From Acidobacteriota bacterium (GTDB taxonomy: Bacteria > Acidobacteriota > Terriglobia > Bryobacterales > Bryobacteraceae), in the NCBI GenBank assembly GCA_017304135.1, contig JAFLBB010000011.1:1-64000 (forward strand): 64,000 nt of DNA. The letters are read 5' to 3'. The notes beneath the pieces are model-generated. The model was not told the origin of the DNA, did not search any database, and worked only from the letters and a program-made list of their open reading frames with translations. Positions 37,884 through 43,947 of the stretch are shown piece after piece. The first letter of the stretch is position 1. Each line of letters begins with the position of its first letter. The translations under genes were made by a program, and so were the position numbers.

Positions 37884-37908
37884 GTCTACTCGACCGAAAT
37901 GAGTAGAC
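37884..37908. promoter_or_regulatory. Inverted repeat abutting the cpaE-like start codon
   Basis: GTCTACTC (37884-37891) and GAGTAGAC (37901-37908) are perfect 8-base inverted arms around a 9-base spacer, ending three bases before the ATG at 37912. No good Shine-Dalgarno sequence lies outside the repeat. It may be an operator or an RNA hairpin limiting translation. Confidence 0.55.
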
Positions 37909-37911
37909 GAG

Positions 37912-39168
37912 ATGCTGACGGCGATCATCGTTGGTGAGAATCCGACACTGGTGCAGTATCTCCGTCAGCTGATCGCCGAATTTGGCGACATTTGCGTCTA
38001 CAAACACATGGACGGAGGGTGCCGGCGCTACGACATCGCGGCCACGCTCTCCTCCTACGAGCCCGACGTCGCCTTTGTTGAAATCACCGACCTGGAAAAG
38101 CCGGACTCGCTGGCTGCGGTGTGCCTGCAGGAATTGCTGCCGGGGCGGCTGCGTACGGTTCTTGTTCCGTTCGCTAGAGCGCCCCTGCCGGCTTCCTCGG
38201 ACAGGGCACTGGGTGCGCTGGCCGGGCCCATACTCACGCCTCCGTTCGACGCCGACGAACTGGACCGGGCTGTGCGGGCTGCTCTGCGCCGGAAGGCGTC
38301 CAAAGTAGCCTCTCTGGTGCTTGCCGTTCTGCCGGCCAAACCGGGGGATGGGGCCAGCACGCTGGCCATCAACCTCGCCGGCGCCGCCGTGAATACGTTC
38401 GGCAAGAAAACGCTCTACATCGAAGCCGATCTGCGTTCCGGGGCAATCTGCTACAGGCTCAATCTTCAGCCGCGTTTTCCGGCTGGCGACATCTTCGTCA
38501 ACGCGGGCAGTTTGATGGAAGGGTGGAGCGGCGCCGTCAGCCCCAGCCATGGCATCGACATTCTGCCCACGGGCGGCTCGCCGCAAACGCTCCGTGGTGC
38601 GCGTTGGGATTTTTACCGTCTGCTGCGATTTGCCCGGGAGCAATACGAAGTAGTCGTGGTGGACCTGCCGGCCGCCATCGACGAAGTCGCTGAATCGGTG
38701 ATCGCCGAGGCCGACCGTGTGGTGATGGTGTGTACGCCGGAAACTTCCTCGCTTGGTCTGATTTCCCGGCGCGTGCGGGATTTGGAAGCCGGCGGGACGC
38801 GTCATGGGCATCTGCGGCTGCTGGTGAACCGCTACGCCGCGGGCGACCCGGCTCCCAGCGAAATGGCCCGCATGGCCCGGCGCGAGGTGACCGCAGTCCT
38901 GCCCGAGGACGTCGGGGCCGTGAAAACCTCTTGCCGTGCCAGCACGCTGCTCAGCCCTGACTCGCGCCTGCAAATGGGCATCCTGGATCTGGCCGGAGCT
39001 TTGCTGCAAATGGAAGCGCCCGGGTGCTCGGTCACGCTACTCGACCGCCTGAAACGGACCGTCCGGCAGTTAGTGGGCAACCACTCCCAGCCTGGCGGCA
39101 CTACCTCAGCAATCAACTGGAATGTGGAGCAGAACAGTGTCGTATGTGATCTTCGCGGTAGAAGATAA
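37912..39168 (+). CDS. CpaE/MinD-like ATPase with N-terminal pseudo-receiver domain
   Basis: 418 residues. Residues 1-125 have the receiver fold pattern (MLTAIIVGENPTLVQYLRQL; DVAFVEITDL; ALAGPILTPPFDADELDRAV), but the acceptor Asp is Glu, as expected of the pseudo-receiver of CpaE proteins. From about residue 135 comes a ParA/MinD-type ATPase: deviant Walker A AKPGDGASTLAINLA, LYIEADLRSG, EVVVVDLPAAID, VVMVCTPE. CpaE proteins localise Flp pilus or other assemblies at the pole. No pilus genes are nearby; instead it overlaps the response-regulator gene and precedes the kai genes. Partner assignment is inferred. Confidence 0.85.
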   Translation: MLTAIIVGENPTLVQYLRQLIAEFGDICVYKHMDGGCRRYDIAATLSSYEPDVAFVEITDLEKPDSLAAVCLQELLPGRLRTVLVPFARAPLPASSDRALGALAGPILTPPFDADELDRAVRAALRRKASKVASLVLAVLPAKPGDGASTLAINLAGAAVNTFGKKTLYIEADLRSGAICYRLNLQPRFPAGDIFVNAGSLMEGWSGAVSPSHGIDILPTGGSPQTLRGARWDFYRLLRFAREQYEVVVVDLPAAIDEVAESVIAEADRVVMVCTPETSSLGLISRRVRDLEAGGTRHGHLRLLVNRYAAGDPAPSEMARMARREVTAVLPEDVGAVKTSCRASTLLSPDSRLQMGILDLAGALLQMEAPGCSVTLLDRLKRTVRQLVGNHSQPGGTTSAINWNVEQNSVVCDLRGRR

Positions 39169-39514
39169 TCCGATCGCCGGCGAGATCGTCCAAACCGCTC
39201 TGGAGAGCCGCGGCCATTCCGTGGCGCTCGTATCGACTGGGCGCAACGCCATTGAGTGGCTGTCCAACAACCAGTGCCACCTCATCCTGTTGGACCTGAT
39301 GCTTCCCGACGCCGATGGGGGGCAACTTGTGGAGGTCCTCCGCAGGCTGCCCAACGGAGCCGGTATCCCCATCCTGGCCTTTTCGGCCTTCGCCTCCAAG
39401 CTCGCCGACCTCCGCCGCAGCGGGGCCCCGTTTGACGGCTACATTGCCAAGCCCGTTGAACCCGAAGATCTGATCCGCATCGTTGAGCAACATCTTCATC
39501 CGGCCGCGGTGTAA
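39137..39514 (+). CDS. Single-domain response regulator
   Basis: 125 residues: acidic E9-D10 (AVEDN), acceptor D53 (LLDLMLPDADGG), Ser/Thr near 83 (AFSAFAS), K105 (YIAKPVEP). No output domain. The start GTG 39137 has GGAG seven bases upstream; an ATG at 39122 would lie within the end of the ATPase gene without a site. It overlaps that gene by 32 bases, so the two are translated together. The histidine kinase at 41977 is the nearest candidate phosphodonor. Confidence 0.88.
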   Translation: MSYVIFAVEDNPIAGEIVQTALESRGHSVALVSTGRNAIEWLSNNQCHLILLDLMLPDADGGQLVEVLRRLPNGAGIPILAFSAFASKLADLRRSGAPFDGYIAKPVEPEDLIRIVEQHLHPAAV

Positions 39515-39838
39515 GCAGGAAATGCCACCACGGTCGAAGGGAACAGCGAGTCGAGCCGCGCGTACAGGTACGTCTCGGTCGCGGTCGTCCCCATTCGGGA
39601 CCGCATGAACGTGATTGAGGGACGCGTACTTGCTGGGACAGTATGTCGGGGACCAGTTTCGATCGCAACGCCGCAGGCTGGCGGCGTCACTCTCCTCCCG
39701 GCAGCCAGTTGCTCACGGACCTTCCAGGTCAGCATCTCAACGCGCGGGCCTGTCCGAGCAGCCGGCTTTGCCTGGCGGTCCGCTTGTGCCGGGGAAACAC
39801 CCTGAGAGAAGTCCCTCGGGAAATGACCTCTTATATAT
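39515..39838. other. Intergenic region upstream of kaiC
   Basis: 324 bases between the response-regulator stop and the kaiC start. Short frames exist on both strands, none with a family resemblance or ribosome binding site. The last ten bases (TTATATATAT, 39831-39840) are strikingly AT-rich against the GC-rich background and run into the kaiC start codon. No clear -35 box is seen. Confidence 0.55.
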
Positions 39839-41623
39839 ATGGTCGCCCGAGTTGGTTCCCGAATAAAGGATCAAATAGTCAGATTTTCAGGCAAGCGGAA
39901 GGCCAAAGACCATCCGGCTCCGCCGACGAAGTGCCCTACCGGCATCCGAGGCCTGGACGAACTCACCGCTGGAGGCTTGCCTAAAGGGCGACCCACCCTG
40001 GTTTGTGGCGGCGCCGGTTGTGGCAAGACCCTACTAGCGGTGGAGTTCCTGGTTCGAGGAGCTACGCAGTATGACGAGCCGGGCGTCCTGGTGGTCTTTG
40101 AGGAGTCGGCACAGGACGTAGCCAGCAATGTCGCCTCATTGGGCTTGGACCTCGACGATCTCGTTGCGCGGAAACTTTTGCGGATCGACTACATCCGCAT
40201 TGATCCGGTGGCCCCGATTGAGAGTGGCGATTACAGCCTGGAGGGGCTCTTCGTCCGCATCAAGTCCGCCATCGACGAGGTGGGCGCCAAACGTATCGCG
40301 CTGGACTCGATCGAGAATCTGTTCGGCACCTCCACCAGCGATTTCCTGGTCCGCAGCGAGTTGCGACGTCTCTTTGCCTGGCTGAAGGATCTGGGATTGA
40401 CAGCGATCATCACGGGCGAGCGCGGTGAGGGCGAACTGACGCGCCGCGGCATTGAGGAATACGTCTCTGACTGCGTGATCCTTCTCGACCATCGCGTCTC
40501 CGAACAAATGGCGACCCGCCGGCTGAGGGTGGTGAAGTACCGCGGCTCGCGGCATGGAACCAACGAATACCCCTTCATGATCGACGACCGTGGCATTGTG
40601 GTGGTGCCGCTCACCTCGCTCCAACTGGAACAGCCTGTTTGCAACGACTTCGTCTCCACCGGCCTGCCGCAGTTGGACGAAATGCTGGGGGGGCGGGGCT
40701 ACTACAGCGGCAGCACCGTGCTGATTTCGGGTTGTTCGGGAACGGGCAAGACAAGTCTGGCGTCTTCCTTTGTCAACCACGCCTGCCGCCAGGGCAGCCG
40801 CGCGCTTTACTTCGCCTACGAGGAGTCGGCGCATCAGATCCAGCGCGGGATGAGCTCCATCGGCCTCGAACTGGAGAAGTGGGTCCGCCTGGGGCGCCTT
40901 CGCTTCCACTGTGTCCGCCCCCACTACTGCGGTCTGGAGATGCATCTGGCCGCGCTGCATAACGCGATCCTCGAATTCGATCCGCAGGTGGTGGTGATGG
41001 ACCCGGCCACGGACCTGTCCGTGATCGGTACGGAGATTGAGGTGCGCTCCACGCTGACGCGGATCATCGATTTCTGCAAGTCGCGCGGTCTCACAGCCGT
41101 CATCACCGCTTTGCATCACGATGTCCGCTCGGAAGCGGCTTCCTCGGTGGGAATCTCCTCGCTGATCGACACCTGGATCGAGGTTCGCGACGTGGAACAA
41201 ATTGGGGAAAGAAACCGGGCGATCTACGTGCGGAAGGCCCGCGGGATCGCTCATTCCAACCAGGTCCGCGAGTTCCTCATCACCAGCAAAGGCCTGCGGC
41301 TGGTGGATGTCTGTATCGGGCCGGAGGGTCTGTTAACCGGGTCGGCGCGGGCCAGCTATGAAGAGCACCTGGCCGGTGAACAGGCGGTCATGCGCCGGCG
41401 CACGGAAACGATGTCGAAGGAGTTGCTCTTGCGGGAGGAGATCCTCTCTTCCCGCATCGCCGCCCTGAAGTCGGAGTTCGAATCCGAGCGTTCCCGGATG
41501 GAAACCGAATTTGCGTTTCTGGCCTGGCAGGAAGAGACCAATCGTAGTTCCCGGGATGCCGTCGCCCAAACCCGGACCCGGGCCGGCGGCCATATTCTGG
41601 ACGCATCAAAGGAGATGGAATGA
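39839..41623 (+). CDS. kaiC: KaiC-family double-domain ATPase with C-terminal coiled coil
   Basis: 594 residues. Two RecA-like KaiC domains. CI has Walker A GGAGCGKT (57-64) and paired catalytic glutamates in VVFEESAQD; CII has GCSGTGKT (298-305) and YFAYEESAHQ. TGIRGLDELTAGGLPKG opens CI and STGLPQLDEMLGG opens CII. Near the end of CII, SVGISSLIDTW aligns with the segment carrying Ser431-Thr432 in cyanobacterial KaiC, giving S440-S441, so autophosphorylation is plausible. After about residue 495 a charged helical tail replaces the cyanobacterial C-terminus. An in-frame stop at 39824 forces the start to ATG 39839, which lacks a Shine-Dalgarno sequence. It overlaps kaiB by four bases. Confidence 0.93.
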   Translation: MVARVGSRIKDQIVRFSGKRKAKDHPAPPTKCPTGIRGLDELTAGGLPKGRPTLVCGGAGCGKTLLAVEFLVRGATQYDEPGVLVVFEESAQDVASNVASLGLDLDDLVARKLLRIDYIRIDPVAPIESGDYSLEGLFVRIKSAIDEVGAKRIALDSIENLFGTSTSDFLVRSELRRLFAWLKDLGLTAIITGERGEGELTRRGIEEYVSDCVILLDHRVSEQMATRRLRVVKYRGSRHGTNEYPFMIDDRGIVVVPLTSLQLEQPVCNDFVSTGLPQLDEMLGGRGYYSGSTVLISGCSGTGKTSLASSFVNHACRQGSRALYFAYEESAHQIQRGMSSIGLELEKWVRLGRLRFHCVRPHYCGLEMHLAALHNAILEFDPQVVVMDPATDLSVIGTEIEVRSTLTRIIDFCKSRGLTAVITALHHDVRSEAASSVGISSLIDTWIEVRDVEQIGERNRAIYVRKARGIAHSNQVREFLITSKGLRLVDVCIGPEGLLTGSARASYEEHLAGEQAVMRRRTETMSKELLLREEILSSRIAALKSEFESERSRMETEFAFLAWQEETNRSSRDAVAQTRTRAGGHILDASKEME

Positions 41624-41976
41624 TCAGGAAACCGCCCGCTTCCGGCAAAAGAGCCCGGCGCGGCGTCGCGCCACCGGAAACGCCGAAAACCCCTGAGGCT
41701 CCCCGCTATCTGCTGCGTTTGTACGTAGCCGGCCTCACCGCCCACTCCACCATGGCTTTGGCCAATCTCAAGGCCGTCTGCGAGTCGCACCTCAAGGGAC
41801 GTTACGACCTGGAGGTATGCGACATCTACCAGCAGCCGGAACTGGCCCGGAGGGAACAGGTGGTTGCCGTGCCTACGCTGATCCGCAGGTTGCCGCCGCC
41901 GGTGCGCCGCGTCATCGGCGACATGTCGCGCGAAGACCGAGTCCTTATTGGGCTCGACATCCTGCCGGAGATGTAA
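41620..41976 (+). CDS. kaiB: KaiB-family protein
   Basis: 118 residues. After a basic, Pro-rich extension of about 28 residues comes the thioredoxin-like KaiB domain: RYLLRLYVAGLTAHSTMALANLKAVCESHLKG, then YDLEVCDIYQQPELARREQVVAVPTLIRRLPPPVRRVIGDMS. KaiB binds KaiC depending on its phosphorylation state. The ATG overlaps the kaiC stop (ATGGAATGA context) and the next start follows the kaiB stop with no gap, so kaiC, kaiB and the kinase form a translationally coupled unit. Confidence 0.95.
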   Translation: MIRKPPASGKRARRGVAPPETPKTPEAPRYLLRLYVAGLTAHSTMALANLKAVCESHLKGRYDLEVCDIYQQPELARREQVVAVPTLIRRLPPPVRRVIGDMSREDRVLIGLDILPEM

Positions 41977-43947
41977 ATGGCCAAGGCGGCACGGCTCGAT
42001 TCCCGCGCGGCGTCTCCACCCCTCAGTGCGCCGGGTGGGCTCGCCGATGTGATTGCCGCCATCGCCGCCGGCGAGGTAGATGCCCTGGTTCTGCGCACAC
42101 CGGCCGGCGAGCAGATCTTCTCCGCGGTCACCGAGGAGCATCCCTACCGCGTACTTGTGGAGGCGATGCAGGAGGGCGCCCTCACGCTGACCCGCGAGAG
42201 CATGGTTGTCTATGCCAACTCCGCGTTTGCTGCACTGGTGGGACAGGGCCTGGAAACGGTGATTGGCAGCAACTTCAAGCGTTTCGTCTGCCGCCGGGAC
42301 GCGGCCAGGATCGAGGGCTTGCTGCATGAGGCCGGTACGGCTCCCACCCGCGCCGAGATCTCGCTCCAGGCCCCCTCGGGCCCTTGCGTGCCGGCCCAAA
42401 TCTCCATCCAGTCGCTGCCCGGCCGGACACCGGAAAGGTTTTGCGCCGTGGTTACCGACCTCAGTGCCGTGGAGGTAAACCACCAATCACAAGCACGCCT
42501 GGCCTCGATTGTGGAAACCTCCTCGGATGCCATTGCCAGCGTGCTTCTGGATGGAACAGTCCTCAGTTGGAATCGCGGCGCGGAGAGCCTGCTTGGCTAT
42601 GCGGCCAGCGAGATCATCGGGCGGCCGGTGCTGGCCCTCCTGCCGGGCCGGGCACGCGGGCAGTTTCAGGCCATGCTGGAGCGGACGGCCCGGGGCGAAG
42701 CGGTTGCCACACTGGAGACCGCGGCGATCCGTGAAGACGGCCTGGAAATCGAAGTCCTGCTCACGCTGTCGCCCGTCCACGACCGCGAGGGAAAGGTGGT
42801 GGCCGCCAGCGCGATTGCCCGCGATTTCACGGAGCGGCGCAGGGCGCACCGGCGCTTGCTCAGCGTGTTGGAATCGGCGCCCGACGCCATTGTTGTTGTC
42901 GACCTTGCGGGCCTCGTGGTGATGGTGAACACCCAGGCTGAGACGCTGTTTGGCTCACGCCGCGACCAACTCATCGGGCTCCCGCTGACATCGCTGCTCT
43001 CCCACGATTTCAGCGAGCAGTTCGCGGAGTGGCTCCGATTGGGGCCGCGGAAGGTCTGGCCGGGCAGCCATCGGGAATTCACGGTCTTGCGTGGCGGCGG
43101 CAGTTTGCCCGCCGAGATCTCCATCGGCACTGTGGAAACCGGCGACGGAATCCTGCTCTGCGCCACGCTGCGCGACGTCAGCGAGCGGAGGCTCTTCCAA
43201 AGCGCCTTGCAGGAAAGGAACCTCCAACTGGAGGAAGCCCTTCTGGCCAAGGATCGTTTCCTTGCCGCTATGTCGCATGAGCTCCGTACCCCGCTGACGG
43301 CCATCGTCGGCCTCACGGGCCTGCTGCTGATGAAGACCGCGGGACCGCTGCAGGAGGCCCAGGTCCGCCACCTGGAGCGGATCCTTGGCAGCAGCCGACA
43401 CCTGAAGACGCTCATCAGCGATTTGCTCGACCTGGCGCGGCTGGAATCAGGAAACGCGACTCTGCAGATCGAACCGGTCGCCTGCAACGAAGTGCTGGAA
43501 GAAGTGTTGCAGGACCTGTCCTCCCAGGCCGAGCACAAGGGCCTGGCGCTGGCGGCAGGAAGCTCCTGTGGCAGTGTGACCCTGCATACCGACCGGCGCT
43601 ACCTGCGCCAGATCCTGTCAAATCTGGTGGGCAACTCCGTCAAGTACACCAACCAGGGAGAAGTTGTCGTCTCTGTCCGTCAGGAGAACGACGGTCGGCG
43701 CGACCTGGTTCAATTCGCGGTTCGCGATACCGGCGTCGGCATCTGTGCGGAGGACCTCACCCGGCTGTTTTCTGAGTTCTGGCGCGCCCAAAGCGCCACT
43801 GGGGGCCGCAGCGAAGGAACCGGTATCGGACTGTACCTCAGCCAGCGCCTCGCATCTTTGTTGGGCGGCCGGATTACCGTCGACAGCGAACCAGGCCGCG
43901 GCAGCACGTTCACGCTGAGCCTCCCCCAGCAGGTGCACACCGGCTGA
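41977..43947 (+). CDS. Multi-PAS sensor histidine kinase linked to kaiBC
   Basis: 656 residues, no membrane segment. The N-terminal GGLADVIAAIAAGEVDALVLRTPAGEQIFS leads into three PAS domains (about 65-165, 170-290, 300-415). The kinase core has H434 in AAMSHELRTPLTAIVG, N box NLVGNSVKYT, G1 DTGVGI, and G2 EGTGIGLYLSQRLASLLGG. It is a soluble hybrid-free kinase. Direct abutment to kaiB suggests it plays the part that SasA or LabA-type kinases play in cyanobacteria, passing Kai state to the response regulator at 39137, though it lacks the KaiB-like sensor domain of SasA. GGAG at the end of kaiB serves as its binding site. Confidence 0.92.
   Translation: MAKAARLDSRAASPPLSAPGGLADVIAAIAAGEVDALVLRTPAGEQIFSAVTEEHPYRVLVEAMQEGALTLTRESMVVYANSAFAALVGQGLETVIGSNFKRFVCRRDAARIEGLLHEAGTAPTRAEISLQAPSGPCVPAQISIQSLPGRTPERFCAVVTDLSAVEVNHQSQARLASIVETSSDAIASVLLDGTVLSWNRGAESLLGYAASEIIGRPVLALLPGRARGQFQAMLERTARGEAVATLETAAIREDGLEIEVLLTLSPVHDREGKVVAASAIARDFTERRRAHRRLLSVLESAPDAIVVVDLAGLVVMVNTQAETLFGSRRDQLIGLPLTSLLSHDFSEQFAEWLRLGPRKVWPGSHREFTVLRGGGSLPAEISIGTVETGDGILLCATLRDVSERRLFQSALQERNLQLEEALLAKDRFLAAMSHELRTPLTAIVGLTGLLLMKTAGPLQEAQVRHLERILGSSRHLKTLISDLLDLARLESGNATLQIEPVACNEVLEEVLQDLSSQAEHKGLALAAGSSCGSVTLHTDRRYLRQILSNLVGNSVKYTNQGEVVVSVRQENDGRRDLVQFAVRDTGVGICAEDLTRLFSEFWRAQSATGGRSEGTGIGLYLSQRLASLLGGRITVDSEPGRGSTFTLSLPQQVHTG

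Follow-up and report, generated by a model that had tools for sequence, protein, structure and literature searches.

A KaiA-less KaiC2–KaiB–kinase locus beside a lone receiver and a CpaE-type ATPase in acidobacteria

The main finding of this study is an association, real but rare, of a kaiC–kaiB–histidine kinase module with a lone receiver and a CpaE/TadZ-type ATPase in acidobacteria. It was found in a 64,000-nucleotide stretch of a soil-type Acidobacteriota bacterium (GenBank assembly GCA_017304135.1, contig JAFLBB010000011.1; hereafter the window), which belongs to a 6.5-Mb draft genome with acidobacterial, Bryobacterales-type metagenome-assembled genomes as its relatives. The five genes that the original prediction had placed at positions 37912–43947 are indeed there on the forward strand, their reading frames being confirmed by Pfam and NCBIfam matches: a CpaE/TadZ-type ATPase (418 residues, 37912–39168), a single-domain response regulator (125 residues, 39137–39514; hereafter the receiver), kaiC (594 residues, 39839–41623), a single copy of kaiB (118 residues, 41620–41976), and a three-PAS histidine kinase (656 residues, 41977–43947). 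The state output of KaiA-less KaiC/KaiB systems outside cyanobacteria is poorly known, and this locus offers a concrete chain. We read it as a KaiA-less KaiC2–KaiB energy/time switch that may be joined to a two-component pair and, through that pair, to a CpaE-type ATPase, a flow of information to which, taken as a whole, we give an even chance.

Linkage of these genes beyond the host genome, which the original prediction had left to a synteny survey, was found in two relatives, so that a lack of conservation no longer stands as an objection to it. The complete set occurs in the same order in the relative G194 (JAFDVS010000013), whose proteins are 65% (CpaE), 86–88% (receiver), 76% (KaiC), 72–77% (KaiB), and 73% (kinase) identical to those of the window, and it can be followed in G125 (JAEUQF010000332; CpaE 40%, receiver 72%, and KaiC 63% identical) up to the contig end inside kaiC. 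The receiver is the most conserved gene of the five. In all three loci, cpaE lies immediately 5′ of the receiver gene, the two genes overlapping in two of them, and the outer neighbors differ, being an M20 peptidase and a DUF3500 protein in G194, and an FkbH-domain protein and an unassigned 843-residue protein upstream of cpaE in G125. Between the window and G194, all five genes show purifying selection (nonsynonymous-to-synonymous rate ratio dN/dS ~0.09–0.19, with dS > 1), and the KaiC proteins of the three loci form one clade (support 97/99), as do their CpaE proteins (support 100/99). That the genes are merely chance neighbors in a few related genomes could be argued from the fact that this CpaE clade occurs in only 3 of the 237 genomes of the family (the host genome, G194, and G125, from two genera). 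We rejected this explanation on the conservation of linkage, selection, and clade support; the same order at deep divergence, between different outer flanks and with KaiC and CpaE both monophyletic, makes it highly improbable.

The association is confined to these loci in everything we surveyed. Another 36 KaiC2/KaiB2 loci from acidobacteria, 16 of them in the family and 20 elsewhere in the phylum, contained no CpaE-family gene, the CpaE clade had no member in the phylum sample outside the family, and a GTDB scan with two short peptide patterns, by which only close relatives are reachable, returned just the two known relatives. In the other loci, a LuxR-type regulator gene comes after the kinase gene (e.g., L065–L067, L069, L136, and L145), or the kinase carries a fused receiver (L130, L143, and L144), or no obvious partner adjoins it. 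These kaiC–kaiB–kaiB–kinase loci, some with the LuxR-type regulator as in L065 and L136, share with the window the same KaiC2, KaiB, and a kinase with the N-terminal head and PAS1 described below, but they differ in the rest of the kinase, in these adjoining outputs, in the lack of CpaE, and, in most of them, in having two tandem kaiB copies. One KaiC2 locus that lacks a kinase (G427; L138, 5427–6671) appears, judged by eye, to have an adenylate-kinase-like protein after its two kaiB genes.

The second finding concerns the kinase and the receiver, which appear to belong together irrespective of Kai genes. As originally predicted, no RpaA-like regulator is present at the locus, the adjacent regulator consisting of a receiver domain only, without a DNA-binding domain. 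Its key residues are E9, D10, the phosphoacceptor D53, S83, and K105. The description of the kinase as a soluble three-PAS protein was also borne out, with HisKA (H434) and HATPase_c domains after the PAS domains and no transmembrane segment apparent in a simple hydropathy scan; its N terminus is a head followed by PAS, not a KaiB-like sensor domain. A receiver search of the family returned five close members set apart from the next by a score gap of 205 versus 98 bits, two of the five having joined the model after a first search in which they already came next after the three Kai loci. The five are the receivers of the three Kai loci and those of G066 and G619. G066 encodes a receiver ortholog (59% identical) followed directly by a kinase that is 44% identical to the window kinase, with kaiC, kaiB, and cpaE all absent there. 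The G066 kinase begins where the head of the window kinase ends, the ~55-residue N-terminal head being missing. PAS2, PAS3, HisKA, and HATPase of the window kinase are 41–61% identical to those of G066 and 7–35% identical to those of other Kai kinases, while PAS1 resembles the two to about the same degree. On a 3.8-kb contig of G619 that has no kai gene, a cpaE-family gene, of which the end is present, is followed by a related receiver gene and then by a multi-PAS kinase gene. Because of these domain and gene comparisons in G066 and G619, the kinase and receiver can be taken as a unit that is independent of Kai, and the head as an element that goes with Kai. The kinase–receiver pairing is thus independently supported by linkage in G066, which amounts to a natural control, i.e., the same pair without Kai proteins and without the head.

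The association of the head with KaiC2 was then found to extend well beyond the three loci. Together with the start of PAS1, the head spans residues 15–71 of the window kinase (42019–42189; ...AAGEVDALVL...PYRVLVEAM...), and its profile consists of 60 positions derived from nine sequences including the window kinase. A match was present in 35 of 40 KaiC2- or KaiB2-bearing genomes, nearly always adjoining kaiB, and in none of 40 genomes taken as lacking KaiC2/KaiB2 (G619 not being separately checked for kai genes). When the nine genomes that supplied the model were left out, the counts were 26 of 31 versus 0 of 40 (Fisher test, the value of which is overstated because the genomes share ancestry). 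Of the five misses, one is G125, whose contig breaks off in kaiC; in the remaining four genomes no recognizable kinase follows kaiB, so that they do not contradict the rule. Out of sample, the head query and window KaiC matched an identical set of 13 among 72,556 plasmid records (L201, L202, and 11 others); these plasmids are mostly from Cereibacter (Rhodobacter) sphaeroides, and the R. sphaeroides kaiC–kaiB–kinase operon is among them. In an AlphaFold2 (AF2) model of low-to-moderate confidence, the head forms a helix (residues 21–30) and a hairpin (residues 36–49) before PAS1. Since it tracks KaiC2 both in acidobacteria and on alphaproteobacterial plasmids, the head is a candidate docking element and may be a general element for coupling KaiBC to kinases. 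Two head copies are located away from a KaiC2 locus, at G261:C220:6569-6745, within an open frame of 1776 residues, and at G440:C23:29612-29788.

The KaiC–KaiB–kinase core is of a kind already known. KaiC has two domains and contains the two catalytic Glu pairs (E88-E89 and E328-E329) as well as the Ser-Ser dyad (S440-S441, 41156–41161) that the original prediction had pointed out. Among solved structures it is closest to R. sphaeroides KaiC (8dba, E 5e-172), and the alignment of the two places the dyad on the Ser-Ser dyad of RsKaiC (S413/S414; PMC10076222) and reaches into the C-terminal coil (approximately residues 503–583), to residue 583 of 594. By this match, the dyad, and the coil, the protein is of the KaiC2 kind. 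The dyad is present but not unusual, as Ser-Ser is the usual state in KaiC2 proteins (PMC5520375), and KaiA, claimed to be missing, was not found anywhere in the genome by a PF07688 search with a positive control in S. elongatus; both features are ordinary for KaiC2. Operons of the kaiC–kaiB–PAS/kinase type have been described previously (PMC4794148 and PMC3164672), and the core is therefore a further example of a known arrangement, not new in kind. What is new is CpaE and the lone receiver beside it. A second, more distant KaiC is encoded elsewhere in the genome (G000:C92 1269-4441, L083); it is 37% identical, has no C-terminal extension, and has a divergent kaiB gene on either side; a PAS-like protein is encoded on the opposite strand, and a TonB receptor nearby.

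Comparison with known Kai systems highlights important similarities and differences. The closest parallel is the kaiC–kaiB–kinase system of R. sphaeroides (KaiBC hourglass; 8dba, 8fwi, and 8fwj), which has the same gene order, no KaiA, a kinase with the same N-terminal head, and a plasmid-borne KaiC that is 52% identical to window KaiC, both proteins having the C-terminal coil and the Ser-Ser dyad. The main differences are that no CpaE or lone receiver adjoins the R. sphaeroides genes and that their kinase is annotated as HWE type; the output of that kinase is not described in the paper searched. The cyanobacterial KaiABC–SasA–RpaA system likewise couples KaiC and KaiB to a histidine kinase, but in the window there is no KaiA, the kinase N terminus is not KaiB-like, and the neighboring regulator is without a DNA-binding domain. 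KaiC–kinase pairs in Ramlibacter, and kaiC near kinases, or with a receiver gene after it, were already known outside cyanobacteria (PMC3164672); in Ramlibacter, however, no CpaE is noted and the N terminus of the KaiC-linked kinase is KaiB/SasA-like (PMC3164672). R. sphaeroides KaiC is a KaiA-independent, hourglass-like dodecamer, and RsKaiBC responds to the ATP:ADP ratio as an hourglass and not as a self-sustained clock (PMC10076222). Hence the suggestion, compatible with the other readings and in our opinion somewhat favored, that the module senses metabolic state or stress by way of the ATP:ADP ratio, without a rhythm and with the wiring proposed here. The absence of KaiA from the genome agrees with it, as do effects of Legionella and Pseudomonas KaiC homologs on stress resistance (cited in PMC11832031). 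On the other side, a proto-circadian effect on fitness has been reported for R. palustris KaiC (PMC4794148), and our genomic results fit a timer and a stress sensor equally well.

The identity of the first gene as CpaE-like, as originally predicted, is supported by its predicted fold. The protein consists of an N-terminal atypical receiver domain (approximately residues 1–130) and a MinD-like ATPase with the deviant P-loop of the CpaE form, P-x-K-x-G-x-G-A-S-T, with K143 and A148, and these motifs are invariant among 28 homologs. Family matches are to CpaE/Ssd, BcsQ, and MinD, all below curated cut-offs. An AF2 model (pLDDT 85) matches 3fkq (E 7.6e-13) over both the receiver-like and MinD-like parts, and 3ea0 (E 6.4e-13) over the ATPase, two structures that we take to be TadZ. 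In the receiver-like domain of the window protein, inspection of the alignment shows Glu57 at the position of the phospho-Asp and no conserved Lys, because of which phosphorylation of this domain is unlikely; at the position of Glu57, both G194 and G125 carry Asp. A C-terminal membrane helix like that of MinD was considered and dropped, the amphipathic tail being significant in the window copy and not in G194 or G125.

Architecture and genomic location do not point in the same direction for this ATPase. It shares with CpaE/TadZ, the localization ATPase of Tad pili, the atypical receiver, the MinD-like ATPase, and the deviant P-loop, but the window gene is outside a Tad locus and is one of an expanded set of acidobacterial paralogs, most of which stand alone, so that its CpaE/TadZ assignment is by architecture only. 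An output to the Tad (Flp) pilus, in which CpaE would be a pilus-positioning factor and KaiBC would time pilus assembly, draws on this fold and on three loci in the genome, on other contigs, where Tad-type cpaB genes score above the curated cut-off. There are, however, approximately ten clear CpaE-family genes in the genome, and the two that lie near cpaB matches (C305 and C347) do not include the Kai-linked gene, which clusters with stand-alone members, apart from the long-branched C347 copy (the C305 copy is outside the tree). No pilus genes were recognized at the Kai locus, and on these grounds we rejected it as a Tad pilus locus and consider a pilus output improbable. Stand-alone CpaE-like ATPases with a receiver-like N terminus, outside pilus clusters, are abundant across the family (e.g., L014, L016, L021, and L028), at least one CpaE-like match being present in 199 of 200 family genomes.

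Taken together with the conserved gene order, these findings suggest the following chain. KaiC, which like RsKaiC probably assembles into a dodecamer through its coil, would autophosphorylate at S440/S441, and its binding to KaiB would depend on its phosphorylation and on the nucleotide it carries. This KaiC–KaiB state would be read by the soluble kinase via its N-terminal head and PAS1; after autophosphorylation at H434, the kinase would hand the phosphate on to D53 of the receiver. Once phosphorylated, the receiver would control the ATPase activity, dimerization, or location of the CpaE-like protein, for which the simplest mechanism would be pairing with the receiver-like domain of that protein. 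Gene identities, conserved linkage, the independent kinase–receiver linkage, and the head–KaiC2 association are direct observations, whereas each biochemical step, above all that from receiver to CpaE and the localization output, we infer from genes and sequences. Up to the receiver the chain is likely; for the final step to CpaE the chances are about even. Protein localization would be the most natural output because the ATPase is of CpaE type and the receiver has no DNA-binding domain.

The final step has to be weighed against a simpler possibility, which is that an ordinary KaiC2–KaiB–kinase–receiver pathway is at work, its receiver diffusing to other targets or serving as a phosphate sink, and that cpaE is a passenger on the transcript, with a function unrelated to the pathway. 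The passenger explanation is helped by the G066 receiver–kinase pair, which does without cpaE, by CpaE being the fastest-evolving protein of the set (65% identity between window and G194, compared to 86–88% for the receiver) and by the abundance of CpaE-family copies, which in relatives are mostly beside unrelated genes. It is at odds with the position of cpaE directly 5′ of the receiver gene in all three Kai loci despite changed outer neighbors, and with a cpaE-family gene that precedes the related receiver in G619 too. On balance we regard it as rather unlikely. Several points nonetheless weigh against an output through CpaE and against the five genes as one working unit. CpaE is not an obligate partner because the G066 receiver–kinase pair has no adjoining cpaE, and the G619 fragment is a family member but not clearly an ortholog. 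No conserved membrane-targeting helix was found in CpaE of the window, G194, and G125. Only three loci carry the link, with the G125 copy ending inside kaiC, and kaiC of G194 has an in-frame TAA at codon 118 (L063 8124), which may be an assembly error or denote a broken gene. Finally, the translational coupling originally proposed holds for cpaE with the receiver gene and for kaiC–kaiB–kinase, but it is interrupted between the receiver gene and kaiC by 324 nt (39515–39838), a gap that allows separate transcription.

In its widest form, our proposal is of a Kai-type timer that would bypass transcription and position a CpaE/MinD-type ATPase via a head-bearing kinase and a lone receiver, the head being a coupling element shared across phyla. 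We put this forward tentatively and with more doubt than confidence. No paper naming both KaiC and CpaE was found in the literature searched. To our knowledge, the link to a CpaE-type ATPase would, if true, make this the first Kai system with a suggested output to spatial organization.

Regarding the fine structure of the locus, scans for promoters, terminators, and Rfam families gave no match above chance, which for promoters and terminators includes the gap before kaiC. This gap is shorter in the relatives, ~95 nt in G194 and ~90 nt in G125. Immediately 5′ of the cpaE start, there is an 8-bp perfect inverted repeat (GTCTACTC/GAGTAGAC, 37884–37908), of a kind expected in 3% of random stretches; the repeat is not kept in relatives, and the leader around it is partly conserved in G194. 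The 3′ end of cpaE (39168) overlaps the receiver gene, which begins with a GTG at 39137 (VSYVIFAVEDNP), a start codon we prefer because it is kept in G194. The start of kaiC (MxARxGSR) is also conserved in G194, kaiC and kaiB overlap by 4 nt, and the ATG of the kinase gene (41977) directly follows the kaiB stop codon.

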